A stretch of DNA of 32,773 bases, taken from contig JAIBCK010000035.1 in the NCBI GenBank assembly GCA_019694215.1, forward strand, positions 1 through 32,773. Reading direction: 5' to 3'. The translations under genes and the position numbers were made by a program. Below, in pieces: positions 14,827 through 32,690 of the stretch (positions are counted from its first letter, which is position 1; every line of letters starts with the position of its first letter). The notes under the pieces are model-generated. The model saw nothing but the letters and a program-made list of their open reading frames with translations, did not search any database and was not told where the DNA came from. The DNA comes from Thermoflexales bacterium (lineage in GTDB: Bacteria; Chloroflexota; Anaerolineae; J036; Brachytrichaceae).

Positions 14827-14844
14827 CGCCGCAGCACGCGCCCG

Positions 14845-14864
14845 GCGATTCGGCTGCGAATCGC
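14845..14864. terminator. Weak hairpin between convergent genes
   Basis: A perfect 8-bp stem (GCGATTCG / CGAATCGC) with a GCTG loop lies 18 bp after the biotin-carrier stop and 39 bp after the M20 gene on the other strand. It lacks a T-run, so a role in ending transcription from either side is only a suggestion. Confidence 0.3.
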
Positions 14865-14902
14865 ACAACGGAGAAACCATTTTCCTGGCGACGTCCGTCG
14901 CC

Positions 14903-16027: not shown

Positions 16028-16069
16028 GTCTTCGCTCCTCGAGTCGGGCTTCGCGGCCAGCGCCGCATG

Positions 16070-17035
16070 TCAGAGATTTACGTTGTATACGGCGCGCGCG
16101 TCGAGCCCGTCCTTCTGCCAGGCGCCCAGGCGCGCGAAATCACGGGTGTAGGCCGCGCCGTCAAACCCCGCCCCGGATGGGAGCTCGCTCAGCGCCACGC
16201 GGCGGCCGGTCCGTCGCGCCTCGGCCGCGGCCAGGCACACCCGCGCGGACTGGAGCAGATCGGCCAGCGGCGCCGGCGCGACGCCTTCGCGGAAGAAGCG
16301 ACCGAGCGCCGCAAACGCCGCGTTGCGCATCGTCCAACCGTTGGGCGGCTGAACGACCTCGACGCTCGTTCCCGTCGTCACCACCAGCACGCAGCCGTTG
16401 CCCGCCATGACCTTGCCACTGCCGAACTGGACGAGCACCGGCGGGCCATCGCGCAGCTCCAAATGGAAGAGCAGCGAGCGTTTGCCGCCGACGTGGGTGA
16501 CCGCCTCCGCCTGCGGGCCAAAGAACGCCAGGACCATCTCCAGGATGTGGGTGCCGTAGTTGAGCAGATCGCCCGGCCCGGACGCCCAGGCCGAGACGGC
16601 ACCGCCCAGCCCGGCGACCTTCTCGCGCAACGTCACGAGCTCCTCCGCGTACCGCATCGTCGAGCCGCCCGCGACCGGCGTCCCGGTCCGGGCCGCCAGC
16701 GCCTGAAGCGCCTCGAGATCGGCCAGCCGGCCGGCGATGGGCTTGTCGATGAAGACGGGTTTGCCCGCTTCCAGGAAGGGCCGCGCGCGTTCGAGGTGCA
16801 GGTCCCAGTTCTGGCTCAGCACGAGGCCGGCATCGACCGAAGCCACCAGCTCGTCCAGGCTGTCGCACACCTGTGGGATGCCGTGTTCGCGCGCGAAGCC
16901 GGCGACATACTCGGCCGTCTGAACGGCGCCCCCGTCGTGGAGCGCGGTCACGCGCAGGTCCGGCGACTGATGCAGCAGCGGGACAAAGAAGCCGGGGTGG
17001 GTGGTGTCGACATCGACCAGGCCAATTCGGATCAT
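16070..17035 (-). CDS. Gfo/Idh/MocA family oxidoreductase
   Basis: A 321-residue NAD(P)-dependent oxidoreductase. The N-terminal Rossmann strand is MIRIGLVDVDTTHPGFF, where the usual GxGxxG is degenerate. The EKP-type motif appears as VFIDKPIAG (about residues 93-101), and GTHILEMVL marks the C-terminal substrate domain with its His. Family members oxidise or reduce sugars, inositols and related polyols, or act as deacetylases via a redox cycle. The ATG at 17035 overlaps the GntR stop as ATGA, so the two genes are translationally coupled. The degenerate nucleotide loop leaves cofactor binding to be confirmed. Confidence 0.85.
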   Translation of the reverse strand: MIRIGLVDVDTTHPGFFVPLLHQSPDLRVTALHDGGAVQTAEYVAGFAREHGIPQVCDSLDELVASVDAGLVLSQNWDLHLERARPFLEAGKPVFIDKPIAGRLADLEALQALAARTGTPVAGGSTMRYAEELVTLREKVAGLGGAVSAWASGPGDLLNYGTHILEMVLAFFGPQAEAVTHVGGKRSLLFHLELRDGPPVLVQFGSGKVMAGNGCVLVVTTGTSVEVVQPPNGWTMRNAAFAALGRFFREGVAPAPLADLLQSARVCLAAAEARRTGRRVALSELPSGAGFDGAAYTRDFARLGAWQKDGLDARAVYNVNL

Positions 17036-17754
17036 CTTGAATTTGCGGCAAACCACGCCGACAGACGGTCGCGGGCGCGCTCGACGTGCGCGGTGCAGGC
17101 GCTGGCCAGCGCCGCCCCGTCGCGTGCTTCGAGCGCCGCGAGGATGGCGGCGTGTTCGGGCTCGGTGAATTGAATAAAGGCATCGGGGCTGAGGCGGCTC
17201 AGCACCCGGGCCAGTTGCAGCGGCCCCGCGACCTGGGCGTAGACCTCGTTTAGCCGGCGGTTGCGGGCCAGGGCCACGATGCGGCAATGAAAATCAAAGT
17301 CCAGGCCGACATACTCGAGCAGGTTGGCGGCGGGGTCCGGCGTGCGAAGCAGGGCGGCCATCCGTTCGAGCAGTGATCGCAGGGTCTTGATGTCGGCATT
17401 GGTGACGTTCGCGGCGGCACGCGGCGCCGCACACCGTTCGAGCGCAAGCCGCACATCGTAGGTCTCCGCCATCTCCAGCGTTTCGAAGGTGGCGACAAAG
17501 GTGCCCCGGCGCGGGACGATGTTGATCAGCCCCTCCATTTCCAAGCGTTGGACGGCCTCCCGGATCGGAGTCTGGCTGACGCCCATCTGGACGGAGATGT
17601 CGCGCAGGTCGAAGCGGAAGCCGGGCGGGTATTCACGGCTGAGAATCCGTCGGCGCAACAACGCATACACCGCATCGCGGATGTTGGAGCGTGAAACGAT
17701 CATGTCGGGATCGTCGGGGCGCTGGGTGGGGGTGATCGCAGTGATGTCGGACAT
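17032..17754 (-). CDS. GntR-family regulator with FCD domain
   Basis: A 240-residue transcription factor of the FadR/VanR branch. The winged helix spans about residues 20-90, with the recognition region in DISVQMGVSQTPIREAVQ (about 52-69) and the wing in PRRGTFVA. The all-helical FCD ligand domain follows (about 97-228), with its metal-ligand residues suggested by DFDFHCRIV and EHAAILAALEARD. Such proteins usually repress catabolic operons until a carboxylate ligand binds. It is the sixth gene of the transporter operon and the only regulator there, which makes it the best candidate for the palindrome at 23295-23322. Confidence 0.93.
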   Translation of the reverse strand: MSDITAITPTQRPDDPDMIVSRSNIRDAVYALLRRRILSREYPPGFRFDLRDISVQMGVSQTPIREAVQRLEMEGLINIVPRRGTFVATFETLEMAETYDVRLALERCAAPRAAANVTNADIKTLRSLLERMAALLRTPDPAANLLEYVGLDFDFHCRIVALARNRRLNEVYAQVAGPLQLARVLSRLSPDAFIQFTEPEHAAILAALEARDGAALASACTAHVERARDRLSAWFAANSR

Positions 17755-17777
17755 GGTGCTGCCGGGAATTCTATCGG

Positions 17778-18800
17778 CTAGACCCTCACGGCGATCGCCG
17801 CAGCGATGGCCTCCTCGATCCCCAGCGCCTCCCCGGCTGCATCGGCGGCGGCGCGCGTTTCCGCATCCAGCGTCGCGCGCGTCCCGGTCAGGGCCGCTTC
17901 GACCGCCGGGCGCAGCAAAGGCACAACGGCCTTTCCCTGTCCGCGCAGGATGGCGGTCCCGGCCGCCAGGAGCGTGAGCGCTTCGGCCGGGCGCCCAAGC
18001 GCAGCGGCGACCCGCCCCAGCCCGATGATGTTGTAGGGGGTGATGGCATCCCCGCTGTTCCCGGCCGTCTCGAGGCTCTCGACAAAGAGTGCGCGGGCGC
18101 GGGCGATGTCGCCGCGCAGACAGGCGACGTGGCCAAGGTTGTGCAGCTCGGAGACCACCAGCTCGCGCCGGCCCATCCCGCGATACACGGCGATGTTGGC
18201 GGCATAGCGGCGTTCGGCCTCGGGCAGGTCGCCGTCCATGACCGCGGCATGCGCAAGGTGATGCAGCGCGATGGCCTCGCCCGTCTCATACCCCGAGGCG
18301 CGCGCGGCCTCCAGCGCCACGGCGCTGTGCTCGCGCATCCCGGCCGCGTCGTTGCGCGACATGGCCACCCGCGACAGCCCGCCGCGCGCCTCCGCCACGA
18401 TCTGCGCCGCGCCAAGCGCCTCGCCGATGGCCAGGCACTCGCGCAGGACGCGCTCGGAGGCATCCGCATCGCCGCGGTGGAAGGCCAGGTTGCCGGCCCC
18501 GGCCAACGCTCGCGCCCGATCCGCGGTGGGTGCCTGCGCCCCCGGCGCGTCCAGCAGCCGCTTCAGCCAGGCCGCGCCGTCCGCGAGCCGCCCGCGGCTG
18601 AGCCACCACGGCCATATTTCAGCCGCGATGGCCACGCCCTCGGCCGGGCAGTTGCGGGTCAGCGTCTCGGCCAGCGCCGCTTCCAGCGTTTCGCGGGCGG
18701 CGTCCAGGCGCGCCAGCGCCGGGCCCGGATCGCGGCCACGCAGAGCAGGGCCGGTTGCGGCGGCCAGCGCGGCCGCATCTTGAATCACTGCGTTGGTCAT
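17778..18800 (-). CDS. TPR-repeat protein
   Basis: A 340-residue, Ala-rich helical protein made of tetratricopeptide-like repeats, for example RALAGAGNLAFHRGDADASE, IALHHLAHAAVMDGDLPEAE and SELHNLGHVACLRGDIARAR, each about 40 residues apart. It looks like the C-terminal TPR half of AfsR/MalT-type STAND regulators, but no ATPase or DNA-binding domain is present; no signal peptide is seen either. It begins by an ATGA overlap with the MDR gene and ends 23 bp before gntR. It may be a cytoplasmic scaffold or a fragment of a former regulator; the function is unknown. Confidence 0.82.
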   Translation of the reverse strand: MTNAVIQDAAALAAATGPALRGRDPGPALARLDAARETLEAALAETLTRNCPAEGVAIAAEIWPWWLSRGRLADGAAWLKRLLDAPGAQAPTADRARALAGAGNLAFHRGDADASERVLRECLAIGEALGAAQIVAEARGGLSRVAMSRNDAAGMREHSAVALEAARASGYETGEAIALHHLAHAAVMDGDLPEAERRYAANIAVYRGMGRRELVVSELHNLGHVACLRGDIARARALFVESLETAGNSGDAITPYNIIGLGRVAAALGRPAEALTLLAAGTAILRGQGKAVVPLLRPAVEAALTGTRATLDAETRAAADAAGEALGIEEAIAAAIAVRV

Positions 18801-19744
18801 GCCTCCCCTCCGGAATCGATGACGGCCACGGCCTTGCCTGCCACCTGGCGAGCCCCCAGCGCTGCCAGCATCGGCCCCATCTCGCGCCAGCTGCCCTGCA
18901 AGCCGATCTGTGGGTCCAGCTTCCCCGCTGCGACCAACGCGAGCAGGTCGCCCAGCGCGCGCGCCCCGACCCCCTGACGCTCCATCTCCTGAAACAGGCT
19001 GATCGCGTAGAGGGTGATCGCCCCCCGCCGGACCAGGGCCAGAACGTCAAACGTGGTGAATTCATCCGAGGAGGCGCCCAGCGACACCGCCGTCCCACCG
19101 GGGGCCATCTTCGCCAGCGTCTGCGCCAGGACCGCCCCGCCGATGGACTCGATCGCCAGGTCAAACAGCCCCGTGGCCGCGTCCACGCTGAGCACGACCT
19201 CGGCGGCCCCGAGCGCCCCCAGCCCCGCCGCGCGCTCGGGCCTGCCGACCTGGGCGGTCACGTGGGCGCCGCCCAGACGGGCGAGCTGAATGGCGATGCG
19301 CCCGACCCCGCCCGCCGCCGCGGTCACCGGCACGCGCGTGCCCAGCAGCGGCCCACCCCGGGCCAGCGCAACGATGCAGGTCAACCCTGCGGCCGGCAGC
19401 GCCGCGGCCGCGGCGTCGGAGACGCCCTCCGGGATGACGGCCAGGCGACGGGTGGGCACGGCGACGCGCTCCGCCCACGCGCCTTCGGGCACCAACCCGG
19501 CCACGCGCGCGCCCTCCGGCGGCCCGCTGCCATCCGCCGCGGCCCGCAGCACGATGCCGGCGACGTCGTAGCCCGGCCGCCAACCGGCCCCCTCCCATGT
19601 CAAACGGCGGAAGTTGCCACGGTTGAGCGAGACCGCGCGCGCTGCAACGAGCGCCTCATCGCGGGAAGGCGTGGGCTCGGCGACATCGGCAAAGGCGATG
19701 CGGTGGGGTTGATGGGGATCGCTGACAATCGCGCGCACAGTCAC
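18797..19744 (-). CDS. MDR-family (quinone oxidoreductase-like) zinc-independent dehydrogenase
   Basis: A 315-residue medium-chain dehydrogenase/reductase. The N-terminal GroES-like domain contains VSLNRGNFRRL and PGYDVAGIV; the Rossmann domain has the nucleotide loop TAAAGGVGRIAIQLA (about residues 142-156). The Cys ligands of zinc alcohol dehydrogenases are absent, which places it with NADPH:quinone/enoyl reductases. It starts 16 bp after the DppC-like permease gene and overlaps the TPR gene by ATGA. It probably reduces an intermediate of the imported compound; the substrate is unknown. Confidence 0.88.
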   Translation of the reverse strand: MTVRAIVSDPHQPHRIAFADVAEPTPSRDEALVAARAVSLNRGNFRRLTWEGAGWRPGYDVAGIVLRAAADGSGPPEGARVAGLVPEGAWAERVAVPTRRLAVIPEGVSDAAAAALPAAGLTCIVALARGGPLLGTRVPVTAAAGGVGRIAIQLARLGGAHVTAQVGRPERAAGLGALGAAEVVLSVDAATGLFDLAIESIGGAVLAQTLAKMAPGGTAVSLGASSDEFTTFDVLALVRRGAITLYAISLFQEMERQGVGARALGDLLALVAAGKLDPQIGLQGSWREMGPMLAALGARQVAGKAVAVIDSGGEA

Positions 19745-19760
19745 TCCTTCCCTGCAACAC

Positions 19761-20624
19761 CTATACCGTGTTGCGAAGATACGGGTCCAGCAGGTCGCGC
19801 AGCCCGTCGCCGAGCTGATTCAGGGCCAGCACGGTCACGCCGATGGCCAGCCCCGGAAAGACGGTCAGCCACCAGCCCAGGCGCATGTAGTTGCGGGCTT
19901 CGCTCAACATCGCCCCCCACTCCGGCGTCGGCGGTTGCGCCCCGAGCCCGAGGAAGGACAGCGCCGCCCCGGTCAGGATCGCGCCCGCGGTGCCGAGCGT
20001 GGCCAGCACGATGAGCGGCGCCAGGATATTCGGCACGACGTGGCGGCCGATCGTGCGGAGCGGCGAGCTGCCCAGCGCGCGCGAGGCCTCGATGTAAGGC
20101 AGGCCCCGCACCGTGAGCACCGAGGCGCGCACCATGCGTGTGTAGGTGGGGATGGACGCGATGCCCACCGCCAGCATGACGTTGAACAGGCTCGGGCCGG
20201 CAATCGCGACGATGCCCAGCGCCAGCAGCACCGACGGAAACGCCAGCATCAGGTCAATCAGCCGCATGACCAGAAAGTCCACCCAGCCGCCGGCAAAACC
20301 GGCCGAAAGCCCGAGCAGCAGTCCGCCCGTCACAGCCAACAACACCGAGACCGCGCCGATGAGCAACGACAGGTGTGCGCCGTTCAGGATGCGGCTGAAG
20401 ATGTCGCGCCCGTAGTGATCGCTCCCCAGCACATGCTGCGCGCCGGGCTCGGCCAGCCGGTTTGGCACATCCATGAGGACGGGGTCGTAGGGCGTGAAGC
20501 GCAGGCCGATCAGCGCCGCCAGCACGATGATGGCCAGCAGCGTTCCGCCGAAGGTGGCGCTGCGGTTGCGCAGGATGCGCCGCAGCACCGAGGGGCCGGC
20601 CGGCATCGCGGCCTCCCTACGCAT
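19761..20624 (-). CDS. ABC transporter permease, DppC/OppC type
   Basis: A 287-residue inner-membrane permease of the peptide/nickel importer group. It has one N-terminal helix, the OppC-type segment HVLGSDHYGRDIFSRILNGA (about residues 66-85), five further helices and the ATPase-contact EAA loop (EASRALGSSPLRTIGRHVVPN, split around residue 185). It overlaps the DppB-like gene by 8 bp if the ATG at 20624 is used; the ATG at 20606 is an alternative. It forms a pair with the upstream permease. Confidence 0.93.
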   Translation of the reverse strand: MRREAAMPAGPSVLRRILRNRSATFGGTLLAIIVLAALIGLRFTPYDPVLMDVPNRLAEPGAQHVLGSDHYGRDIFSRILNGAHLSLLIGAVSVLLAVTGGLLLGLSAGFAGGWVDFLVMRLIDLMLAFPSVLLALGIVAIAGPSLFNVMLAVGIASIPTYTRMVRASVLTVRGLPYIEASRALGSSPLRTIGRHVVPNILAPLIVLATLGTAGAILTGAALSFLGLGAQPPTPEWGAMLSEARNYMRLGWWLTVFPGLAIGVTVLALNQLGDGLRDLLDPYLRNTV

Positions 20625-21540
20625 AGCGGATCCTCGGGTCGATCAGCGCATACGAGATGTCGACCAGCAGGTTCACGCCGACATACACGCAGGCCACGAA
20701 CAGGACGACGCCCTGCACCAGCGGGAAGTCGCGCCCCAGGATGGCGGTCACCAGCAGGCGCCCGATGCCCTGGCGCGAGAACACCGTCTCGACCACCACC
20801 GCGCCGGCGAGCAGGTTGCCGAACTGCAGCCCCACGATGGTGACGACGGGGATGATGGCGTTGCGCAGCGCGTGCCGCAGCACGACGCGGGCAAAGCCGA
20901 GGCCCTTGGCGCGCGCCGTGGTGATGAATTGTTGTCGTAGGACTTCGAGCAGCGAGCTGCGGGTGAGCCGGGCGATGATGGCGGCCGCGCCAAAGCCCAG
21001 CGTGCCGGCCGGCATGATCAAACGTTCAAAGCCCTCCGTCCCGGTGGCGGGCAGCCAGCCCAGCGCCAGCGAGAAGATCAGCAGCAGGTTCAACCCGACC
21101 CAGAAGGACGGGAAGGAGACCCCGGCCAGCGCCAGCGCCATCGCGCCCGAATCCAGCCAGGTGCCCGGGCGCAGGGCGGCCACGATGCCCAGGCTCAACC
21201 CGACCGTCAGCGCGACGACCATGGCCGCCAGCGTGAGCTGGAGGGTCGCCGGCAACTGCGAGCGGATCTCATCGACGACGGGGCGCTTGAACTGGAGCGA
21301 GCGACCCAGGTCGCCCTGGATCGCCCGCTCCACAAAGCGGAAGTACTGAACGTGCAGCGGGTCATCGAGCCCGTACTGCGCGCGCAGCTGCGCCGCCTGT
21401 TCCTGGCTGATGACCCCATCGCCGACGATGGCGGTCAGCGGATCGCCCGGAACGAGCTTCAGGCTGAAGAAGACCAGCGCCGAGATCCCGATCAGGATCG
21501 GGATGGTGGCGAGCAGCCGCTTCAGGATGTACGTCCCCAC
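20617..21540 (-). CDS. ABC transporter permease, DppB/OppB type
   Basis: A 307-residue permease with the OppB layout: an N-terminal helix (LKRLLATIPILIGISALVFF), the PGDPLTAIVGD periplasmic motif, five later helices and the EAA loop RAKGLGFARVVLRHALRNA (about residues 217-235). It follows the binding-protein gene by only a few bases. With the DppC-like protein it would form the channel of an oligopeptide, dipeptide or glycoside importer. No ATPase subunit gene follows, contrary to the usual dppABCDF order. Confidence 0.94.
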   Translation of the reverse strand: MGTYILKRLLATIPILIGISALVFFSLKLVPGDPLTAIVGDGVISQEQAAQLRAQYGLDDPLHVQYFRFVERAIQGDLGRSLQFKRPVVDEIRSQLPATLQLTLAAMVVALTVGLSLGIVAALRPGTWLDSGAMALALAGVSFPSFWVGLNLLLIFSLALGWLPATGTEGFERLIMPAGTLGFGAAAIIARLTRSSLLEVLRQQFITTARAKGLGFARVVLRHALRNAIIPVVTIVGLQFGNLLAGAVVVETVFSRQGIGRLLVTAILGRDFPLVQGVVLFVACVYVGVNLLVDISYALIDPRIRYA

Positions 21541-21543
21541 GCG

Positions 21544-23223
21544 CTATTCCAGCGAGACTTCGTAGAGATACGGGTAGCTGCCGAGCGGATGGGTGCGGAA
21601 GCCCTTCACCTTCGGGCTCACGCCGAACAGGCGGGCGAAGTTGTAGATGGGGTACACCCACGCGTTCTCCATGATCTTCATCACCACCTGTTCGAGCAGG
21701 GCGGCGCGCTTGGCGGCATCGGGCTCCTTGGCCTGGTCGTCGAGCAGCTTGTCGAGATCGGCGTCCTTGATCCGCGACCAGTCGAAGCCGCCCAGGTTGC
21801 GCGAGTGGAAGACCAGCTGGATGGCGCCGGGATCGCTGTCGATGAGCGCGGTCGAGAACATGTTGCCCTCGCCCTTGTGACCCATCGACACGCGCGTGGC
21901 CTGGTCAAATACCTTGACATTGACCGTGATGCCGAGTGGCTTGAGCAGCGCCTGCGTGGCGACGACCTTGGGCTCGTAGGTGGTCAGGTCGACGAAGTCG
22001 ATGACCAGCTTCTGCCCGTCCTTCACCCGCACGCCGTCGGGCCCCGCCTTCCAACCCGCGTCGTCGAGCAGCTTCTTGGCCTTCTCCATGTCGTAGGGAT
22101 ACATGCCCACGCCCTTCTTGGCGTGATGCAGGGTGTTGTCGGCGATGGGCGTGTCGGCGGCGGAGTACAGCCCGAAGAAGGCGGCGTTGATGAGCTCCTG
22201 CCGGTTCAGGCCGTGCAGGATGGCCTTGCGGACATTGATGTCGTTGAAGGGCGCCTTCTCGGTGTTCATGTAGATGCTCATCGGCGACCCCGGGGTGCGC
22301 GCGACGACCATCTGATATTTGCCCGACTTCTTGAGCCGGTCGAAGTCGCCTTCAGGCACGGTCTCCATCACCTGCAGCTCGCCGCTCTCGAAGGCGGTGA
22401 GGCGGGCGCCGTTCTCGGAGATGCCGACAAAGGTGATCTGTTCGAGATAGGCCGGCCCGGTGTGGTTCCAGAACGCGGGGCCCCAGGCGTAGTCGGCGTT
22501 GCGGACGACGACGATGCGATCCTTGGCCACCCACTCCTTGAAGACCATGGGGCCGGTGCCGACCGGGTTGCGGCCAAAGTCGTCGCCAAACTTCTTGACC
22601 GCCGTCGGCGAGGCCATCGACAGCCAGGTCTGGGCGAGCGAGTCGTAGAAGGCGGCATATTGCGTCTTGAGGGTGACCTCCGCCGTGAACTCGTCGACGA
22701 CGCGGGTCCCAGCATACGGGCCGAGCTTGGCGGTCGAGCTCGGGCTCTTGGTGGCCGGATCCGCATAGCGATCAAAGTTAAACTTCACCGCCTCCGCGTT
22801 GAAGGGCGTGCCGTCATGGAACTTGACGCCCTTGCGCAGCTTGAAGGTGTGCGTCAGCCCGTCGGCGGAGCTCTGCCAGGACTCGGCCAGGCCGGCCTTG
22901 TACTGCAGGTCGCCCGGGTCCTGCCAGATCAACGTGTCATACAGGTTCATCATCACGTTGAAGGCTGAGGCCTGGGCGGTCTTGGCCGGATCGAGCGAGT
23001 CCGGCTCGTTGTTCATGGCATAGCGAATCTGCCCGCCGGGCTTGCCGGCCCCGGATGCGGCCGGCGCCGCCGTGGGCTTGACAGCGGGTGCCGCGGTGGG
23101 CGCAGCGGGCGCGGCAGGGGTCGCGGGCACGCAGCTGGCGGCGAGCACCGCCACCGCGCCGGTTCCGCCGATCTTGATGAAACGGCGGCGGGAGATCAGG
23201 TTGGGACGCGATCGTTTGGACAT
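21544..23223 (-). CDS. ABC transporter substrate-binding lipoprotein, family 5 (peptide/nickel type)
   Basis: A 559-residue extracytoplasmic binding protein. The signal has a twin-arginine-like SRRRFIK (about residues 11-17) and a lipobox ending LAASC (Cys31), followed by a flexible Ala/Pro/Thr-rich linker to about residue 70. The family-5 core is shown by YAMNNEPDSLDPAKTAQA, LAESWQSSADGLTHTFKLR and GVKFHDGTPFNAEAVKF. The start at 23223 is supported by AAGGAGGAAGCC immediately upstream, one of the few strong ribosome sites in this window. It is the first gene of the eight-gene operon behind the operator-bearing promoter at 23295-23350. Confidence 0.95.
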   Translation of the reverse strand: MSKRSRPNLISRRRFIKIGGTGAVAVLAASCVPATPAAPAAPTAAPAVKPTAAPAASGAGKPGGQIRYAMNNEPDSLDPAKTAQASAFNVMMNLYDTLIWQDPGDLQYKAGLAESWQSSADGLTHTFKLRKGVKFHDGTPFNAEAVKFNFDRYADPATKSPSSTAKLGPYAGTRVVDEFTAEVTLKTQYAAFYDSLAQTWLSMASPTAVKKFGDDFGRNPVGTGPMVFKEWVAKDRIVVVRNADYAWGPAFWNHTGPAYLEQITFVGISENGARLTAFESGELQVMETVPEGDFDRLKKSGKYQMVVARTPGSPMSIYMNTEKAPFNDINVRKAILHGLNRQELINAAFFGLYSAADTPIADNTLHHAKKGVGMYPYDMEKAKKLLDDAGWKAGPDGVRVKDGQKLVIDFVDLTTYEPKVVATQALLKPLGITVNVKVFDQATRVSMGHKGEGNMFSTALIDSDPGAIQLVFHSRNLGGFDWSRIKDADLDKLLDDQAKEPDAAKRAALLEQVVMKIMENAWVYPIYNFARLFGVSPKVKGFRTHPLGSYPYLYEVSLE

Positions 23224-23294
23224 GGCTTCCTCCTTTTGGGGCGATCTGGCCTGACGGGACACGCTCCGTCGTGACGGCGTTCGCGCCCACCAGC

Positions 23295-23322
23295 CGTGAT
23301 ATCTGATATTTCAGATATCACG
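23295..23322. promoter_or_regulatory. 28-bp AT-rich palindromic operator
   Basis: Perfect 12-bp arms CGTGATATCTGA / TCAGATATCACG surround a TATT centre. It is strikingly AT-rich against a GC-rich background and directly adjoins the -10 box at 23323-23328, so it covers the transcription start region of the transporter operon. This position is classic for a repressor. The GntR-family protein encoded in the same operon is the obvious candidate; binding is inferred. Confidence 0.85.
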
Positions 23323-23350
23323 ATTGTAGGAGCACGGGAGACGCTGTCAA
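23323..23350 (-). promoter_or_regulatory. Sigma-70-type promoter of the transporter operon
   Basis: On the minus strand TTGACA (23350-23345) is separated by 16 bp from TACAAT (23328-23323). The start point would fall near 23316, inside the palindrome, leaving a leader of about 90 nt that ends in a strong Shine-Dalgarno sequence. Confidence 0.82.
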
Positions 23351-23520
23351 GGTGGGCCCGGTCCGCAGTTTCCCCTGGCACACCGCCGTGAGTGACAAAG
23401 ACTCGTGAACCGATTTACAAACCCAGTGGACGGGTTGGCGGCTGGGCGCGGCGCAGGGGAGGTGCCTGCCCGCGGGCGGCGCTCGCCGGACCTGCCCGGG
23501 GCGCGGGGCGCGGCCCCTAC

Positions 23521-23526
23521 TACAAT
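23521..23526 (+). promoter_or_regulatory. -10 box TACAAT upstream of recJ
   Basis: TACAAT is followed by 8 nt and an ATG at 23535, the same spacing as at 12065 and 14315. The region upstream (23351-23520) is GC-rich with no obvious -35 box and no ORF I can support. Confidence 0.5.
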
Positions 23527-23534
23527 ACCGCGCC

Positions 23535-23651
23535 ATGAACGCGATCACCGCCATGCGCCGGGAAGCCCTTTGCACACGCAGCGGTGGACCGCACCTTTCG
23601 GCCAGCGTGGCCGCCGACCGGCAGCATCGGCGTGCGCGCCTTCCGACCTGA
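23535..23651 (+). CDS. Possible 38-codon leader ORF before recJ
   Basis: This short ORF begins at the ATG served by the TACAAT-N8-ATG promoter, is in frame with recJ and stops at TGA 3 bases before the recJ ATG. The peptide (MNAITAMRREALC..., 38 residues, Arg-rich) matches no family I know. It may be a leader peptide that couples translation to recJ, or the remains of a longer recJ N-terminus interrupted by a frameshift: a neighbouring frame reads PDAWRLL just upstream, which resembles the Trp-containing start of some RecJ proteins. Confidence 0.3.
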   Translation: MNAITAMRREALCTRSGGPHLSASVAADRQHRRARLPT

Positions 23652-23654
23652 CGC

Positions 23655-25910
23655 ATGGCGGCTCCTGCTGATTTCGCCGCCGCCATTGGCGGGCACCCCA
23701 TCGTCGCCGATGTGCTGTGGGCGCGGGGCTTCCGCGACCTCGACCGCGCGCGCGCCTTCCTCGACCCGGAGCGTTATGCGCCCCGCCCGCCCGGCGAGCT
23801 GCCCGGCATGGCCGAGGCCGTCGCCCGGCTGAGCGCGGCCCGCGCGCACGGCGAGCGGGTGCGGGTATGGGGTGATTTCGATGTGGACGGCCAGACCGCG
23901 ACCAGCACGCTCGTGGTGGGTTTGCGTGCGTTGGGCGTCGTGGTCGACTACAGCATCCCCAACCGGCTGACGCACAGCCACGGCCTGAACCGGGAGGGCC
24001 TGCAGCGCGCGCAGGCTGACGGCGTGCGGGTGCTGCTCACCTGCGACTGCGGCGTGACCGATTTCGCCGAGATCGCAGCGGCGCGCGCGCTGGGCCTGGA
24101 CGTCATCATCACCGACCACCACGATCTGGCCCGCGACGCGGCCGGGGCCGTCCTCCTGCCCGACGATGTCTCCGCCGTCGTCAACCCGAAGCGTTTGCCC
24201 GAGGATCATCCGTTGGGCCAGCTGCCCGGCGTGGGCGTGGCGTGGAAGCTGATTCAGGCGCTGGGCCAGGCAATCGATCCGGGCTTTGATCCCGATCCGC
24301 TGCTCGATCTGGTCGCGCTGGGCATCGTCGCCGATGTCGCCCACCAGGCCGCCGATACGCGCCACCTGCTGCAGCGCGGGCTGCGCCGCCTGCGCGAGGC
24401 GCCCCGGCCGGGCATCCGCGCGCTGCTCCGCACCGCCGGCCTCACGGCCGGCCAGGTCACGGCGGATGAGATCGGCTTTCAGCTCGGCCCGCGCCTGAAC
24501 GCGGCCGGCCGCCTGGACACCGCCGAGCGCTCGGTGCAGCTGCTCATCGCCGCGACCGACGCTGAAGCAAAACCGTTGGCCGAATCGATCGAGGCCCTCA
24601 ACCTGCGCCGCCGCGAGTTGCAGCGCGCGGTGGAGGAGAGCGCGGCGCGGCTGCTTGGCCAGCACCCCGAATGGCTGGAGGGGCGCGCGCTGGTCATGGC
24701 TTCGGCCGAGTGGCATCCCAGCGTGCTGGGCGTGGTGGCATCCGGCTATGCCGAGCGGCTGGGCAAGCCCGCCATGCTGATCGCCGCCGATGAGGCCGGC
24801 CCCCCGGCGCTGGCGCGCGGATCGGCTCGCAGCGTGTCCGGCATCGACATCAACGCCGCGATCTTGGCCCAGGGCGAACTGATTGCCGGCGGCGGGGGCC
24901 ATCCGCTCGCGGCCGGGTTCGCCATCCCCAGCCAGAACATCGCCGCCTTCCGGGTGGGCATCGATGCCTGGCTGCGCGCCGCCCCCGGCGTTGCCGCCGC
25001 GTCTGGTGACGCCGACGAGGCGTTTGACATCCCCTTGCGCGAGGCCGGGCTGGCGCTGGTGATGGAATTGGAGCGTTTGGCGCCCTTTGGACCGGGCAAC
25101 CCGCGCCCGATGCTGCGCAGCGCGCCGGTCGAGGTCGCCCGGATCGAGCTGCTGGGGCGGGATGGCCGCCATCAGCGCGTGTGGCTGCGCGATGCGGCCG
25201 GTGAGCAGCGCGAGCTGGTGTGGTGGCGCAGCGCGGGGCAGAGCGTGATTGCCGGCCCCTGCGCCGCCGTCTTCACGGCACGCCGCAATGTGTATCGTGG
25301 CCAGGAGCGGCCGCAGCTTCAGTTGGAGCGTTTTGCGGAGGCAACCCCGGCCGCCGCACCCACGGGGGCGCCGGCCCGCGCGGCGGTGACCGGGCAGCGC
25401 GCGGTGTTGGACCTGCGCGGGCGCGCCGACCGCGAGGCCGCCGTCGAAGCCTTTCTGGACGCACAGGGGCGGGAACGCGTGTTTGCGCTCGGCGCGTGGC
25501 CGGGGTTGCCGGCCCTGCCGCGTCCGCTCACCGCGCAGCCCGCGCTGTTGGTGTTGGAGGCCCCGCCCGGGTTGGCCGAGTGGGAGCATGTCCTGGCGGT
25601 GGTGGCGCCGCAGCGCGTGGCGCTGGCGACCGCGCCGCCGGATGCGCGCGCGGATGGGATCGAGCGCGTGCTGCGTCAGGCCCGCGGGCTGCTGGAGACC
25701 GCCCGGGCACGCGGTGACGATGTCGATGACGCGCAGGTGCTGGCGCGCATGGCCGCCCGCATCGGGCAGCGGATCGAGACGCTGCGCTGTGCGTTTGACG
25801 TCGTGCTCGGGCGGGATGCCGGCGTGGCCCGCGGCCGGCTGGCGTATTTGCTCGAGGAGACCCACGCCTTCCGGCGCTTCTTTCATCAGGCCGCCAGCGG
25901 GACGTTTTGA
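23655..25910 (+). CDS. recJ: Single-stranded-DNA-specific exonuclease RecJ (DHH/DHHA1)
   Basis: A 751-residue 5'-3' exonuclease for recombination and mismatch or base-excision repair. DHH-domain motifs are clear: VWGDFDVDGQTATS (about residues 71-84), TCDCGV and IITDHHDLA (about 151-159), then NPKRLPEDHPLG and LPGVGVAWKL. The DHHA1 domain contains WHPSVLGVVASGYAERLGK and GGGGHPLAAGF. An OB-fold region follows (about 485-560). The last 190 residues form an extension found in some lineages, and no motif in it tells its role. The ATG at 23655 is the first usable in-frame start, but the N-terminus is a little short; see the leader ORF upstream. Confidence 0.92.
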   Translation: MAAPADFAAAIGGHPIVADVLWARGFRDLDRARAFLDPERYAPRPPGELPGMAEAVARLSAARAHGERVRVWGDFDVDGQTATSTLVVGLRALGVVVDYSIPNRLTHSHGLNREGLQRAQADGVRVLLTCDCGVTDFAEIAAARALGLDVIITDHHDLARDAAGAVLLPDDVSAVVNPKRLPEDHPLGQLPGVGVAWKLIQALGQAIDPGFDPDPLLDLVALGIVADVAHQAADTRHLLQRGLRRLREAPRPGIRALLRTAGLTAGQVTADEIGFQLGPRLNAAGRLDTAERSVQLLIAATDAEAKPLAESIEALNLRRRELQRAVEESAARLLGQHPEWLEGRALVMASAEWHPSVLGVVASGYAERLGKPAMLIAADEAGPPALARGSARSVSGIDINAAILAQGELIAGGGGHPLAAGFAIPSQNIAAFRVGIDAWLRAAPGVAAASGDADEAFDIPLREAGLALVMELERLAPFGPGNPRPMLRSAPVEVARIELLGRDGRHQRVWLRDAAGEQRELVWWRSAGQSVIAGPCAAVFTARRNVYRGQERPQLQLERFAEATPAAAPTGAPARAAVTGQRAVLDLRGRADREAAVEAFLDAQGRERVFALGAWPGLPALPRPLTAQPALLVLEAPPGLAEWEHVLAVVAPQRVALATAPPDARADGIERVLRQARGLLETARARGDDVDDAQVLARMAARIGQRIETLRCAFDVVLGRDAGVARGRLAYLLEETHAFRRFFHQAASGTF

Positions 25911-26463: not shown

Positions 26464-28446
26464 CTACTTCTTCGCGGCGATGTCGACGTATTCCTCGCGC
26501 ACCACCTGCGCATCGCTGATGCCCAGGCGGGCCAGCGCGTCCGAGATCACCTGCGCCTTGCGCTCGGCGTCGCGGCGGCTCCAGGTGCGGCTCTTGAGCT
26601 CGAGGTAGTAGCCCTCCTGCTTCGGGCTGACCATCTGATCGAGGTTGAGGAAGAGCTCCTCGTCCTGGAAGATCATCTCCCAGCGCAGGCGGTCCTTCTC
26701 CACCGAAACCTCTCGCTCCGGCTTGAAGTACTCGCGGTAGAAGCGCAGGCTGCGGTCGGCCGACGAGATGAAGCGCGAGCGCGAGAGCAGGATCGAGTGC
26801 GAGAACTCGCGGTCCTTCTCGCTGCCCACCAGCGTCAGACGATAGCGGTTGCTGATCGGCTTGCCGGCCTCGTCGATGCGCTCGTCCTCGCGGTAGCGCA
26901 GGCGGCTGTCATCATCCGCAAAGAAGAAGTAGGTGTCGTACTGCCGGTAGTGCACATGCCGGACGACCGTGAAGTCGCTGCCCTTGAGCGCGGCGATGAT
27001 CGTGGCCGGGTCGTTCACCCGGGCCTTGACCTGCACCTCGAAGCTCTCCTCCTGCTGCACGCCGCCGATGGCCGCCAGCTTGCGCAGCACATCCCCCTCG
27101 CGCTCGCCGAGGAAGGTGGCGATGCGCTGGCCCATGGCGTTCGCTTCATTGCGGATGCGCTCCTCGTTCAGCGTGAGCAGCGCGCGGTCGCGCATGACCG
27201 GCTTGCCGTTGATGATGACATCGCGCACATCGGCGGCCTTGGTCGCGTAGACGAGCTGGGTGTAGATCGCATCGGGGTTGGCCGGGCCGGCATACAACGG
27301 GGCGTTGTGCAGGCGGCGCAGGTCGACGACGATCAGGTCAGCGCGCTTGCCCACTTCCAGCGAGCCCGTCAGCGCGCCGATGTGGCAGGTTTCGGCGCCG
27401 CCGAGCGTGGCCATGCGCACCGCGGTGCGGGCCGGCACGCTGACCGGGTTGCGGGTGCTGCCCTTGGCCAGCAGGGCGACCAGGCGCATCTCCTCGAAAT
27501 GATCGAGGTCGTTGTTGCTGGCGGGGCCATCTGTGCCGATGCCGACGGTGACGCCGATCTCCAGCATCTGGTCGACGTTGGCGATCCCGCTGGCCAGCTT
27601 GAGGTTGGCGGCGGGGTTGTGGCTGATCGTGGCGCCGGCGTTCTTGAGCGTGCGCATCTCACCGGCGTCGATCCACACGCAGTGCGCGCAGATGACCTTG
27701 GCTTCGAGCACGCCGTTCTTCTTGATCCAGTTGACGACCGGCATGCCATGGTCGCGGCGGCAGTCGATGACTTCCTGCTCGGTCTCGCTGATGTGAATGT
27801 GCAGCGGCACGTCGTATTTCTCGGCGATCTCCGCGCACGAGCGCATGAGCGATCCGCTGCAGGTGTAGGGCGCGTGCGGGGCGATGACCGGCACGATCAG
27901 CGGATGGCCCTTCCACTTCTCGATGAAGCGGGTCACCGACTCGAGCGCGTCATCGGGCGAGGGGCTGTCCGGCGTCGGGAACTGCATCACCGTCTGGCTG
28001 GCCAACGCACGCATGCCAGCCTTGGCGAGCGCCTCGGCGATGTCGTCCTCGAAGTAGTACATGTCGTTGACGCAGGTCACGCCGCTGCGGATCATCTCGG
28101 CGGCGGCCAGCTCGGCGCCCAGGCGGACGAACTCGGGCGAGACGAACTTGCGCTCGGCGGGCAGCATGTAGCCATACAGCCACACGTCCAGGCGCAGGTC
28201 ATCGGCCAACCCGCGCAGTAAGGTCATTGGCACGTGGGTGTGGCAGTTGATCAGCCCGGGCATGATCACGCAGCCCTGGCAGTCGATGGTTTCGCGGGCC
28301 GTGTAGCGCGCCTGCAGGTCGGCACTCTCACCGACCGCGACGATGTGATCCCCGGAAATGGCGACAGCGCCGTTCTGAAATTGCGAGAAATTGGCGTCGA
28401 TCGTGATGACGATGCCATTGATGAGAAGGGTGTCAATGCGTTCCAT
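26464..28446 (-). CDS. Amidohydrolase (MtaD/SsnA-type deaminase) fused to a CYTH domain
   Basis: A 660-residue two-domain protein. Residues 1-450 form an amidohydrolase of the MTA/SAH deaminase group: NCHTHVPM (His69, His71), APHAPYT (His191), LHIHISETE (about 216-222), CAHC (about 255) and GTDGPASNNDLD (Asp306), plus the C-terminal ADLIVVDL strand. Residues about 468-655 are a CYTH (triphosphate tunnel) domain: EVQVKARV, YDTYFFF, SRLRYRED, RYRLTLVGSEK and LELKSRTWSRRDAERKA. The CYTH ExExK motif reads ExQxK. Normal MtaD proteins end near 430-450, so this is a true fusion with no internal stop. The ATG at 28446 follows a TATAAA box by 6 nt. It is divergent from the ATP-grasp genes. The product of the pair of domains is unknown. 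Confidence 0.88.
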   Translation of the reverse strand: MERIDTLLINGIVITIDANFSQFQNGAVAISGDHIVAVGESADLQARYTARETIDCQGCVIMPGLINCHTHVPMTLLRGLADDLRLDVWLYGYMLPAERKFVSPEFVRLGAELAAAEMIRSGVTCVNDMYYFEDDIAEALAKAGMRALASQTVMQFPTPDSPSPDDALESVTRFIEKWKGHPLIVPVIAPHAPYTCSGSLMRSCAEIAEKYDVPLHIHISETEQEVIDCRRDHGMPVVNWIKKNGVLEAKVICAHCVWIDAGEMRTLKNAGATISHNPAANLKLASGIANVDQMLEIGVTVGIGTDGPASNNDLDHFEEMRLVALLAKGSTRNPVSVPARTAVRMATLGGAETCHIGALTGSLEVGKRADLIVVDLRRLHNAPLYAGPANPDAIYTQLVYATKAADVRDVIINGKPVMRDRALLTLNEERIRNEANAMGQRIATFLGEREGDVLRKLAAIGGVQQEESFEVQVKARVNDPATIIAALKGSDFTVVRHVHYRQYDTYFFFADDDSRLRYREDERIDEAGKPISNRYRLTLVGSEKDREFSHSILLSRSRFISSADRSLRFYREYFKPEREVSVEKDRLRWEMIFQDEELFLNLDQMVSPKQEGYYLELKSRTWSRRDAERKAQVISDALARLGISDAQVVREEYVDIAAKK

Positions 28447-28452
28447 CCAGCG

Positions 28453-28458
28453 TTTATA
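28453..28458 (-). promoter_or_regulatory. -10 box TATAAA of the amidohydrolase-CYTH gene
   Basis: TATAAA ends exactly 6 nt before the ATG at 28446, which would start the transcript on the A of the start codon. No Shine-Dalgarno sequence is present. It lies back to back with the promoter of the ATP-grasp genes, about 24 bp from that promoter's -35 box. Confidence 0.5.
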
Positions 28459-28481
28459 GCACAATCGCCGGCCGCTTTCGG

Positions 28482-28509
28482 TTGACTTTCCGCGATCCGG
28501 TCTTACAAT
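28482..28509 (+). promoter_or_regulatory. Promoter of the tandem ATP-grasp operon
   Basis: TTGACT (28482-28487), a 16-bp spacer and TACAAT (28504-28509). The start would fall near 28516, giving a short leader of about 16 nt before the ATG at 28532. The leader has no Shine-Dalgarno sequence. Confidence 0.78.
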
Positions 28510-28531
28510 CGCGCCCCAGAACCAGACAATC

Positions 28532-29566
28532 ATGCCATCTCGCAAGACCTTCAAGGTCGCCGTCCTTGTCAACCTGGCCAAGAATGCCCCCTCCGTCGCA
28601 AGCGAGCGCGTCAGCGTCACCCACGATGCCCTGGCCGATCTCGACTCCGAGAAGACCGGGCTTTCGTATGTCGCCGCGCTCCGCGCGCGCGGTCATGAGG
28701 CGGTGCTCCGCGAAGGTGGGCTCGACCTCCCGGCCTGGCTGGCCGAATTCAAGCCCGACATCTGCCTGAACACGTGCGAGGGCTTCATCGGCGACAGCCG
28801 CGAGGCGCAGGTGCCCGCCCTCCTGGAGATGATCGGCAATGTCCGTTATACCGGTCCCGGCCCGCTGGCCGCCGCCGTCACGCAAGACAAGCCCACCACC
28901 AAGCAGGTGCTGCATTACTACGGCCTGCCCACGCCGCTTTTCCAGGTCTTTGCCACGCCGCATGACCCCGTGCGCGTTGACCTGCGCTATCCGCTCTTCG
29001 TCAAGCCCAAGCACGAGGGCACCGGGATGGGCGTCAAGGCCGACAGCATCGTCCGCACGGCGGCGCAGCTGCGCGACCGGGTCGCCTGGGTGATCGACAC
29101 CTATCAACAGCCTGCGCTGGTCGAGAGTTACATCGAAGGCCTGGACATCACCTGCGGCCTGACCGGGAACGGCGACGACGTGCACTTCTTCCCGATCACC
29201 GAGGTGGACTTCAGCGGTTATCCGCCCGAGATCGGCGCCGTCTACGGCAGCCTGCACAAGATCGAATACGACGAGGCCTATCGAAACAAGTGCCCGGCCC
29301 CGCTGGATGATTACCGACCCGGCCTGAGCGATGAGATCCGTACGCTCACCCATCAGGTCTTTCTGCGCACCGGCTGCCGCGACTACGGGCGGGTCGATTT
29401 CCGCCTGGATGCCGATTACAACCCGCACATCCTGGAGATCAATGGCCTGCCGGGCATCGCCCCGCGCAGCGATCTCACGCTGATGGCCGAGGCCGAGGGC
29501 CTGACGCACACCGACCTCGTCAACATGGTCCTGGATGCGGGGCTCAAGCGCTACGGGTTGATCTGA
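28532..29566 (+). CDS. ATP-grasp ligase, D-Ala-D-Ala ligase-like
   Basis: A 344-residue ATP-grasp enzyme that should form an amide or peptide bond through an acyl-phosphate. Visible features are an N-terminal preATP-grasp Rossmann-like domain with NTCEGFIGDSREAQ (about residues 80-92), TGPGPLAAAVTQDK (Lys120), the nucleotide loop FVKPKHEGTGMGVK (about 156-169), GRVDFRLD (Asp289) and the Mg-binding LEINGLPGI (Glu302, Asn304). Several hallmarks differ from true Ddl, and a second ATP-grasp gene follows 5 bp later, so cell-wall D-Ala-D-Ala synthesis is unlikely. It is probably the first ligase of a small two-step amide-forming pathway. Substrates are unknown. Confidence 0.88.
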   Translation: MPSRKTFKVAVLVNLAKNAPSVASERVSVTHDALADLDSEKTGLSYVAALRARGHEAVLREGGLDLPAWLAEFKPDICLNTCEGFIGDSREAQVPALLEMIGNVRYTGPGPLAAAVTQDKPTTKQVLHYYGLPTPLFQVFATPHDPVRVDLRYPLFVKPKHEGTGMGVKADSIVRTAAQLRDRVAWVIDTYQQPALVESYIEGLDITCGLTGNGDDVHFFPITEVDFSGYPPEIGAVYGSLHKIEYDEAYRNKCPAPLDDYRPGLSDEIRTLTHQVFLRTGCRDYGRVDFRLDADYNPHILEINGLPGIAPRSDLTLMAEAEGLTHTDLVNMVLDAGLKRYGLI

Positions 29567-29571
29567 TCCCC

Positions 29572-31125
29572 GTGAACCGCCTGCCCGTCCTCCTGCTCTA
29601 CGGTCTGGATGCGCGCAGCCATGACTGGGAGGTGACCTCCACCCGCGCGCTGGTGGCGCGCGTTCAGCAGGCCCTGCGCGGGCAGGGCTGGCTCGTGCAT
29701 GCGCTCGAGGTTCGCGACGACCTGGCCGGCGCGCTGGCGCCGTACCGGCCGGGCGAGTGGGTGGTGCTCAACCTGTGCGAGGGCGCCCCGGAGCAGGCCT
29801 TCTACTACGCCGCCGCGGCCGAACATCTCGAACGGACAGGACACATCTACACGGGCTCCTCGGCGCACTGCCTGGATGTGACGCAGTACAAAGGCATGAC
29901 GAAGCGCCTGCTCGACGCGGCCGGCGTGCCCACCCCGCGCTGGAGGGAGATCCAGGGTCCGGAGCAGGCCGACTTCGACGCGTATCCGGCCATCCTCAAA
30001 CCGAGTGCTGAGCATTGTTCGTATGGCATCACGCGCGAATCCGTCGTCGTGAACGATGCCGAGGCGCGCGCGCAGGCCGCGCACCTGGCCGCCACCTTTG
30101 GCGGCAACATCCTGGTTGAGGCGTTTCTCGACAGCCCGGAATACAACGTCTCGGTGTGGGGCAATGGCGAGGCCCATGTGCTGGGCATCTCTACCATGAC
30201 CTACGACGCCTTCTCCGACATTCATGATCGGCTGTGTACGTTTGACGCGAAGTGGACGCCAGAGTCGGTGGCGTATCGGCGCATCCCGGCCATCTGCCCG
30301 GCCCCCATCAGCGCCGCCCTGGCCGCCGAGATCGAGGCCGTGGCGGTCGCCGCGTATCGCGCCTGCGGCGTGCGCGACTACGGCCGGGTCGATCTGCGCC
30401 TGACGTCCGAGGGTCATCCGCTGGCCTACGACGTCAACGCCAACTGCGATGTCAGCGATGACGGCGGTTTCTTCCACGCGGCGGAGGCGGCCGGCCTGAG
30501 CTATGGCCAGATGCTCGAGCGCATCCTGATCTTTGCGCTGCGGCGGCATGCCCAGGACGCGCCCGCGCAGCCGGTCGGGACCGTGCGCGTGGTGGACAGC
30601 GTCGCCGCGGACCGCGAGGAAATCGGCGCCATCCTGACGAACTCGGGCCTCTTTCACGCGGTGGATGTGGCCACCGTCGATGAGATGTTCGCCACCACCT
30701 ACGCCCGGCCCATCACACGCGACAGCTACCGCTTTCTCACCGCCTGGGAGGACCTGCCCAACGGACAAAGCCGTCGCGTTGGGTTCGCCTGCTTCGGGCT
30801 GGAGTCGCTCACCGAGGACACCTGGGATCTGTTCTGGGTGTGCGCGCTGCCGTCCGCGCGCGGGCGCGGCGTCGGCGGTGCGCTGCTCGGGCGGGCCGTG
30901 GCGACGGCGCTGGCCGAGAACGGGCGGGTGATGGTGATCTACACCTCGTCGACGGACCCGTATGCGCCGGCCCGGCGGCTGTATGCCTCGCAGGGCTTCG
31001 CGCGCACCGCGGTGATTCCCGACTACTACAGCGACGGCGACGACCTGAATATCTTCTCGCGTCGGCTGCGGCCGCGCCCGGGCGCTCAGGCCGACGGCGC
31101 GACGACCTCGGTCAGCGAGGGGTAG
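29572..31125 (+). CDS. ATP-grasp ligase fused to a GNAT acetyltransferase
   Basis: A 517-residue fusion that starts at GTG 29572, 5 bp after the previous stop. The ATP-grasp half (about residues 1-325) shows LNLCEGAPEQAFYYAAAAEH, TQYKGMTKRLL, AILKPSAEHCSYGI and GRVDLRL; the metal-binding strand reads YDVNANCD, with Asp in place of the usual Glu. The GNAT half (about 338-505) shows the acetyl-CoA loop in ALPSARGRGVGGALL and the late APARRLYASQGF and SDGDDLNIF segments. The protein may ligate an amino group and then acetylate the product, or the reverse. The last 40 bp overlap the 3' end of the convergent kinase gene. Confidence 0.88.
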   Translation: MNRLPVLLLYGLDARSHDWEVTSTRALVARVQQALRGQGWLVHALEVRDDLAGALAPYRPGEWVVLNLCEGAPEQAFYYAAAAEHLERTGHIYTGSSAHCLDVTQYKGMTKRLLDAAGVPTPRWREIQGPEQADFDAYPAILKPSAEHCSYGITRESVVVNDAEARAQAAHLAATFGGNILVEAFLDSPEYNVSVWGNGEAHVLGISTMTYDAFSDIHDRLCTFDAKWTPESVAYRRIPAICPAPISAALAAEIEAVAVAAYRACGVRDYGRVDLRLTSEGHPLAYDVNANCDVSDDGGFFHAAEAAGLSYGQMLERILIFALRRHAQDAPAQPVGTVRVVDSVAADREEIGAILTNSGLFHAVDVATVDEMFATTYARPITRDSYRFLTAWEDLPNGQSRRVGFACFGLESLTEDTWDLFWVCALPSARGRGVGGALLGRAVATALAENGRVMVIYTSSTDPYAPARRLYASQGFARTAVIPDYYSDGDDLNIFSRRLRPRPGAQADGATTSVSEG

Positions 31126-32690
31126 GGGCTGGGCAGCTCGATCCGCAGGTCGAGCCCACCCCCTGCCGGGCGCTCGAAGCTGACACTGCCGCGCATGAGC
31201 GAGACGCGCTCGCTGATCCCGAGCAGGCCAAAGCTGCGGCGCTGCGACAGCGCCGCGAGGTCGATGTCCCCGGCCAGCCCCTTGCCATTGTCCGTCAGGC
31301 GCAGCATCAGGCTGGCGGTTGCGGAGCGGCTGAGGGCGAGGTGCACGCGGGTGGCGCGGGCATGCTTCTTGATGTTGGCCAGCCCCTCCTGCACGATGCG
31401 ATACACCGAGAGCTCCATGGCCTCGGGCATGCGGCCGAGCTCGTCCTCGATCTCGAGGTCGATCGGGATGCCCGTCTGCGCCGACCACTTCTCCACCAGC
31501 GAGCGGATGGCCACCGAGAGGCCGTGTCGGTCGATCGTGGGAGGGCGCAGATCGCTGCACATCTCGCGCACATTGCCGATGGCCTGGCGCAGCCCGGTGC
31601 GGATCTTGAGCAGCTCGGCGCGCTGGGCGAGGTCGTCGCTCTCGTCCTCGACCTCCTCGATCTGATAGCTGTAGCTGAGCAGGTCCTGGATGACCTGGTC
31701 GTGCAGCTCGCGGGCCAGCCGCTTGCGCTCCGTCTCACGCTCTGTCATCAGACGCTGGTGGGCGTCCTGCAGCGCCAGGTTCAGCCGGTCCAGCGCCCCG
31801 AGCTGGTTGCGCATCCGGTCGATCAGCTCGCGGTTGAGCGAGTCCTGGGCTTCCAGGCTGAGCTGCAACTCGCGCTGCTGGCTGCGCAGCGATTCGGCCT
31901 GGCGCTGGGCGAGGTGATAGTTCTCGATGGCCCAGATCACCGGGGTGATCTGGTCGCGCCGGTTTGAGCCCACGATCAGCTCGACGATCTCGCGCGGGTC
32001 GGAATCCTGCGTTGTTCGGAGCGTCGTCGGACGGTCGGGATGCAGGATCAGGATGCGCTGGGTGATCGAGAAGATGTGTTTGAGGTCGTCGGCGATCAGG
32101 ATGACACCGGCACCCTGCTCGGCGCGCTGGCGCAGACAGCGCAACAGTGCGTTCTGCCGCTCGTAGGTTAGCGCATCCAACCCGCTGTCGACGACCAGCA
32201 CGCGCGCGGTGCGGCTGAGCAGGCGGGCCAGGGCGACGACATGACGTTGCTCGCCCGACAGGCGCGCCGCCTGCGCCGGGAAGAGCTCGGGCGGGAAGTC
32301 GAACTCGCGCAGGATCTGGCGCGCGCGGGCGAGCATGTCGCCGGTATCGAGCAGCATCCCCGCGCGCGGAAGGCGCGTCACCTCGCGGCCCATGAAGACG
32401 TTGGCCAGCACGCTGAGGTTGCCGGCCAGCGAGGGCCGCTCGTGGGCGACCTCGATCCCGAGCGCCTGGGCGCGGCGCGGATTGCGCAGCACGACGGGTT
32501 GATCGTCGACCAGAATGCCGCCGCCGGTCGGGAGCTCCGCGCCCGCGAGCAGGCGCGCGAGGGTGGATTTGCCCGCCCCGCGCTGCCCGACCACCCCTAG
32601 GATCTCGCCGGGATCGAGCGTGAAGGTCGCCTCGGTCAACGCTGCGACCGGACCGTGATACTTGCTCAGGGATTGCGCGTTTAGGAGCAT
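31086..32690 (-). CDS. ABC-ATPase-like domain fused to a NarL-type sensor histidine kinase
   Basis: A 534-residue soluble protein. Residues 1-245 form an RbsA/MglA-like ABC ATPase domain: Walker A GQRGAGKST (35-43), signature LSGEQ (144-148) and Walker B VLVVDSGLD (164-172). The catalytic Glu after Walker B is Ser169, and the H-loop His is Asp (IADDLKHI), so ATP binding is likely but turnover is not. A coiled coil (about 255-325) leads to a HisKA_3 domain with RELHDQVIQDLL (His330). The HATPase domain has N box EGLANIKKHA, G1 TDNGKG and G2 FGLLGI. No membrane helix is present. It probably senses nucleotide or a transporter state and phosphorylates a NarL-type regulator, which is not in the window. 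Promoter GTGACA-17-TATACT lies upstream. Confidence 0.9.
   Translation of the reverse strand: MLLNAQSLSKYHGPVAALTEATFTLDPGEILGVVGQRGAGKSTLARLLAGAELPTGGGILVDDQPVVLRNPRRAQALGIEVAHERPSLAGNLSVLANVFMGREVTRLPRAGMLLDTGDMLARARQILREFDFPPELFPAQAARLSGEQRHVVALARLLSRTARVLVVDSGLDALTYERQNALLRCLRQRAEQGAGVILIADDLKHIFSITQRILILHPDRPTTLRTTQDSDPREIVELIVGSNRRDQITPVIWAIENYHLAQRQAESLRSQQRELQLSLEAQDSLNRELIDRMRNQLGALDRLNLALQDAHQRLMTERETERKRLARELHDQVIQDLLSYSYQIEEVEDESDDLAQRAELLKIRTGLRQAIGNVREMCSDLRPPTIDRHGLSVAIRSLVEKWSAQTGIPIDLEIEDELGRMPEAMELSVYRIVQEGLANIKKHARATRVHLALSRSATASLMLRLTDNGKGLAGDIDLAALSQRRSFGLLGISERVSLMRGSVSFERPAGGGLDLRIELPSPYPSLTEVVAPSA

Follow-up and report, generated by a model that had tools for sequence, protein, structure and literature searches.

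What do two adjacent ATP-grasp ligases make, and which genes work with them? The question is raised by a group of three genes in a 32,773-bp stretch of DNA from a Thermoflexales bacterium, the whole of which is referred to here as the window. A first-pass annotation described these genes as an amidohydrolase-CYTH fusion diverging from an ATP-grasp gene and an ATP-grasp-GNAT fusion, and suggested that all three serve one pathway. The two forward-strand genes lie side by side with a gap of 5 bp, as had been claimed. By Pfam, ligase A (28532-29566, 344 aa) is a Ddl-like ATP-grasp protein matching Dala_Dala_lig_C (E 2e-26), and ligase B-GNAT (29572-31125, 517 aa) matches both Dala_Dala_lig_C (1e-20) and GNAT (6e-9). 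The ATP-grasp part of the latter comprises residues 1-335 (29572-30576) and the GNAT part residues 336-517 (30577-31125); the GNAT part scores 36.7 bits against PF13508 (cut-off 27 bits) and carries the acetyl-CoA loop RGRGVG in the window sequence. The amidohydrolase-CYTH gene lies on the reverse strand (26464-28446, 660 aa). The intervening region, put at 36 bp by the annotation, is most likely 85 bp instead, since comparison with homologues from relatives supports an amidohydrolase start at 28446; it measures 223 bp in a relative of the same genus (L068), gene starts beyond the window being the output of a simple gene caller. The region holds a promoter-like site directed toward the ligases (28482-28509, forward strand, TTGACT-16-TACAAT), called by consensus match alone (10/12), where shuffled sequences give 0.1 such sites.

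Of the proposed amidohydrolase-CYTH fusion, the amidohydrolase part is strong (Amidohydro_1, E 7e-73), whereas the sequence match to CYTH is weak (E 6.6e-4; 20 bits against a Pfam cut-off of 23.2). The CYTH-like C-terminal domain spans residues 470-649 (26500-27039, reverse strand), and the same profile matches 5 of 22 homologues, with a best E of 5e-7. The ExExK motif of CYTH domains appears here as ExQxK: E470, Q472 and K474 are invariant in the 22 homologues. An AF2 model gives the protein a separate strand-rich C-terminal domain, and a profile of this domain searched against PDB sequences found no CYTH entry, so the CYTH label is likely but not certain. Among solved structures, the closest to the amidohydrolase are enzymes of the adenosine or methylthioadenosine deaminase type, with identities reaching 40%. 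The protein resembles methylthioadenosine, S-adenosylhomocysteine and 5'-deoxyadenosine deaminases (about 40% identity, TM 0.96 by target length to 4f0r and 4dzh, both adenosine deaminase homologues), but differs from them by the additional CYTH-like domain with its ExQxK motif.

Could this enzyme belong to the pathway and trim its product, as the annotation had it? The divergent arrangement would speak for this, were it not confined to the window and one other genome of the same genus (L068/L086). Nearly every genome sampled from the window's family, and many other families in the class, have the fusion at full or near full length, with 49-85% identity; at 30 homologous loci its neighbors differ, with no constant companion gene. 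In the one-contig genome G317, ~1.5 Mb separates the fusion (C1:2532729) from ligase A (C1:4026278). Each also occurs without the other: three genomes (G325, G184, G331) have the fusion without a clear ligase A, and G208 has ligase A without the fusion. Because its neighbors vary, its adjacency to the ligases is limited to one genus and the two occur separately, the amidohydrolase is removed from the candidate members, and its participation, given also its deaminase-type relatives, is very improbable. The annotation had itself named rarity of such adjacency in other genomes as grounds for refutation, and for this gene that is what the comparison shows. We judge the amidohydrolase-CYTH gene to be an independent core gene of the window's family and a mere neighbor of the ligases.

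The ligases themselves have a different history of linkage. When GTDB genomes were scanned with ligase A, 80 loci were returned, most of them from Chloroflexota; about twenty close loci share the order A - B - GNAT - C, in which the last gene (C) encodes another, third Ddl-like ATP-grasp protein. Fusion of B to GNAT is confined to the window's genus, and every other relative examined encodes the two separately, in the same order; ligase C of the window genome is found on another contig (C52), away from A and B-GNAT. Ligase A, ligase B and the GNAT protein thus belong together as one unit, and the part of the annotation that took the tandem for a small-molecule unit is borne out by an operon which is conserved in relatives and looks like a small-molecule pathway. 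Other genes flanking the operon were considered as further members and rejected: MFS, ArsB-like and two-component genes (L079/L082/L083) are not shared across groups, and MTTB, Exo VII and GMP synthase genes at other loci likewise do not recur across groups.

One more gene does recur. Beyond the window's family, nearly all A - B/C - GNAT operons have a gene for lysine 2,3-aminomutase (LAM) immediately upstream of A and co-directional with it. It is the first gene of the operon at loci L075-L077, L079, L082, L083, L109-L114, L116-L118, L121-L123, L125 and L126, and in several operons (L076, L082) the LAM and A reading frames overlap or abut. The linkage is seen in Anaerolineales-type and Thermoflexus-type groups and, in another class that is probably Dehalococcoidia, in members with small genomes. 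Genomes such as the small one-contig G007, G020 and G048 have the LAM-A pair alone, with no match to B or C at the threshold used, and B, C and GNAT are therefore not always needed. The same three genomes contain a second LAM_C match in a much longer open frame of 764-784 aa away from A (G007:C1:318678, G020:C1:175302, G048:C1:213758). In the window's family LAM is unlinked to the ligases and lies on other contigs—contig C166 in the window genome—so that the likely real partner was out of sight of the first-pass annotation, an illustration of how neighboring genes in one genome can mislead. In a FastTree phylogeny rooted with a single outgroup, the LAMs from the window's family cluster in a single group that branches from within the operon-linked LAMs, as would fit an operon broken up later.

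The association of LAM with ligase A extends beyond physical linkage. Of 301 genomes sampled across the phylum, 51 match A; one of these (G036, E 9e-46) is a weak match, probably a paralogue, and was kept out of the remaining 50. Each of the 50 with a clear A, drawn from 15 families, has LAM, as against 65 of the 251 without A (Fisher p about 3e-25, a value that is only indicative because the genomes are related). By their listed coordinates, 22 of the 50 have the two genes side by side on one contig. Every sampled family f2 genome with A also has LAM, in each case unlinked. Among 60 close relatives, 40 have both genes, 5 have A without LAM, 4 have LAM without A and 11 have neither (p about 1e-5), and some of the 5 in which LAM was not detected, out of 45 with A, are incomplete MAGs. 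The 65 genomes with LAM and no A indicate that LAM has other uses. By co-occurrence, ligase A is the operon member most tightly tied to LAM.

The window genome's LAM (L166:8297-9658) scores 529.4 against the AblA equivalog model, above its cut-off of 525.4, and can be aligned nearly end to end with a lysine 2,3-aminomutase of known structure (2a5h), at 55% identity. It retains KAM residues Asp293 and Asp330, which bind the lysine side chain in the 2a5h structure, together with the PLP lysine Lys337 and the iron-sulphur motif CxxxCxxC. A glutamate 2,3-aminomutase identity is disfavored by the higher AblA score and by the retention of the lysine-type Asp residues. A search for lysine 5,6-aminomutase (PF09043) gave no match in the 60 genomes, nor in the control genomes, and so ran without a positive control. 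In the AblA/AblB pathway of methanogens and some bacteria, beta-lysine becomes N-epsilon-acetyl-beta-lysine, AblB acetylating it directly. No protein over the AblB cut-off (TIGR03827) was found in the 60 relatives, in a search that was positive in 3 control genomes; the GNAT protein is RimI-like and does not reach the AblB profile, which rules out an AblB identity for it.

Beta-lysine is also attached to protein: beta-lysylation of EF-P uses EpmB, a LAM-family enzyme, and ligase A might by analogy act as EpmA does on EF-P, joining beta-lysine to a protein instead of producing a free metabolite. The genomes with a LAM-A pair only would suit such a role, as would the EF-P precedent. Yet the LAMs score far better against AblA than against EpmB (529 versus 259 bits), most operons carry further ATP-grasps and a GNAT, and no gene for a target protein recurs beside the operons, all of which make a protein-modifying role for A unlikely.

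Are the ligases then ordinary D-alanine--D-alanine ligases that happen to accompany LAM? Ligases A, B and C were aligned with E. coli DdlB (L226), the N-terminal alignment being the least certain part. In A all of the ATP and metal residues (K97, K144, E180, D257, E270, N272) are retained, and in B likewise, with D replacing E270. The substrate side is altered: at the Ddl substrate residues E15, S150 and Y216, A has A/V, T and V/I, and B has E, C and W. Ligase A keeps the PG...S carboxylate pocket while E15, H63 and Y216 are changed; in B and C the pocket is lost and a Trp occupies position 216. An AF2 model of B-GNAT matches Ddl structures of the PDB in its ATP-grasp half; with few GNAT rows in the underlying alignment, the GNAT half was modelled at low confidence. 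Neither A (132.9 bits) nor B (92.7 bits) reaches the curated Ddl cut-off of 243 bits, and C likewise falls short of a curated Ddl cut-off. A canonical Ddl is encoded elsewhere in the window genome (G000:C10, E 2e-63) and keeps E15, S150 and Y216 together with the ATP and metal residues. The missed cut-offs, the separate canonical enzyme and the changed pocket residues rule out A and B as ordinary Ddl.

The comparison bears on another explanation, in which A, B and C are divergent cell-wall D-Ala-D-X ligases tailoring peptidoglycan precursors and the link to LAM is incidental. Their closest solved structures are all Ddl; they share its fold and metal-binding residues, and A has its C-terminal carboxylate pocket as well. 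Such a role is nonetheless unlikely: the genome encodes a canonical Ddl, the three ligases lie below the Ddl cut-offs, A differs from Ddl at E15, H63 and Y216, and an incidental link sits poorly with LAM in every genome that has a clear A.

We favor, with moderate confidence, a reading in which the window holds two members, A and B-GNAT, that belong to a Chloroflexota pathway with LAM and ligase C encoded elsewhere in the genome and with a product that contains beta-lysine. Taking the operon and the co-occurrence with LAM as observed, we infer substrates, order of steps, product and role as follows. LAM would convert L-lysine to beta-lysine. Ligase A may then activate a carboxylate as an acyl-phosphate and couple beta-lysine to another amino acid or an amine; its predicted place as the first ligase follows from its adjacency to LAM and from the genomes with LAM and A only. 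Ligases B and C might extend or cap the product, and the GNAT would acetylate it; the outcome would be a small amide or peptide that is N-acylated and contains beta-lysine. A and B-GNAT probably build an undescribed small molecule of this kind. By likeness to acetyl-beta-lysine, the product is perhaps a compatible solute or another protective metabolite.

The proposed pathway resembles the AblA/AblB system in combining a LAM with a GNAT acetyltransferase, the two genes being linked in many relatives, and departs from it in that the GNAT is RimI-like rather than AblB and the operon adds Ddl-like ATP-grasp ligases, two or three in number. Amide pathways such as N-acetylglutaminylglutamine amide synthesis likewise pair an ATP-grasp ligase with a GNAT to produce an acetylated small peptide; the LAM partner and the Ddl-like ligases set the present genes apart. 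A more specific proposal is that a widespread undescribed pathway of Chloroflexota makes an N-acetylated oligopeptide containing beta-lysine without ribosome or NRPS, with up to three Ddl-like ATP-grasps acting serially after LAM; this we put forward tentatively, as somewhat short of an even chance. If the favored reading is right, a pathway is assigned to a set of genes which annotation pipelines would probably label D-alanine--D-alanine ligases, and a metabolite derived from beta-lysine is to be expected in many Chloroflexota families. A literature search, with most subscription journals outside its scope and an earlier prediction therefore possible, found no paper linking aminomutase, ATP-grasp and beta-lysine and none on the operon.

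Several further observations concern the same genes and their surroundings. Homologues of ligase A without B, C, GNAT or an adjacent LAM are found at various loci among L130-L165, in Anaerolineales and Bacillota. The cultured species Longilinea arvoryzae has a homologue of A (L131). Past ligase C in the same-genus relative lies a 173-aa gene (L068:10513-11034, forward strand) that matches glycine reductase selenoprotein B weakly (GRDB, E 7e-7). The B-GNAT gene overlaps by 40 bp at its 3' end, tail to tail, with a reverse-strand gene (31086-32690) in which an ABC-transporter ATPase domain (RbsA/YtfR-like) is joined to a histidine kinase (HisKA_3 and HATPase) in one protein; a related 506-aa protein is encoded in the same genome (L074:2216-3736). 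A 165-aa gene and RecJ, which adjoin in the same-genus relative (L068, 1393-4246), are separated in the window (14826-23655) by ~8.8 kb, a stretch that includes an oligopeptide-type ABC importer (19761-23223), a zinc alcohol dehydrogenase-like gene and a TPR protein.
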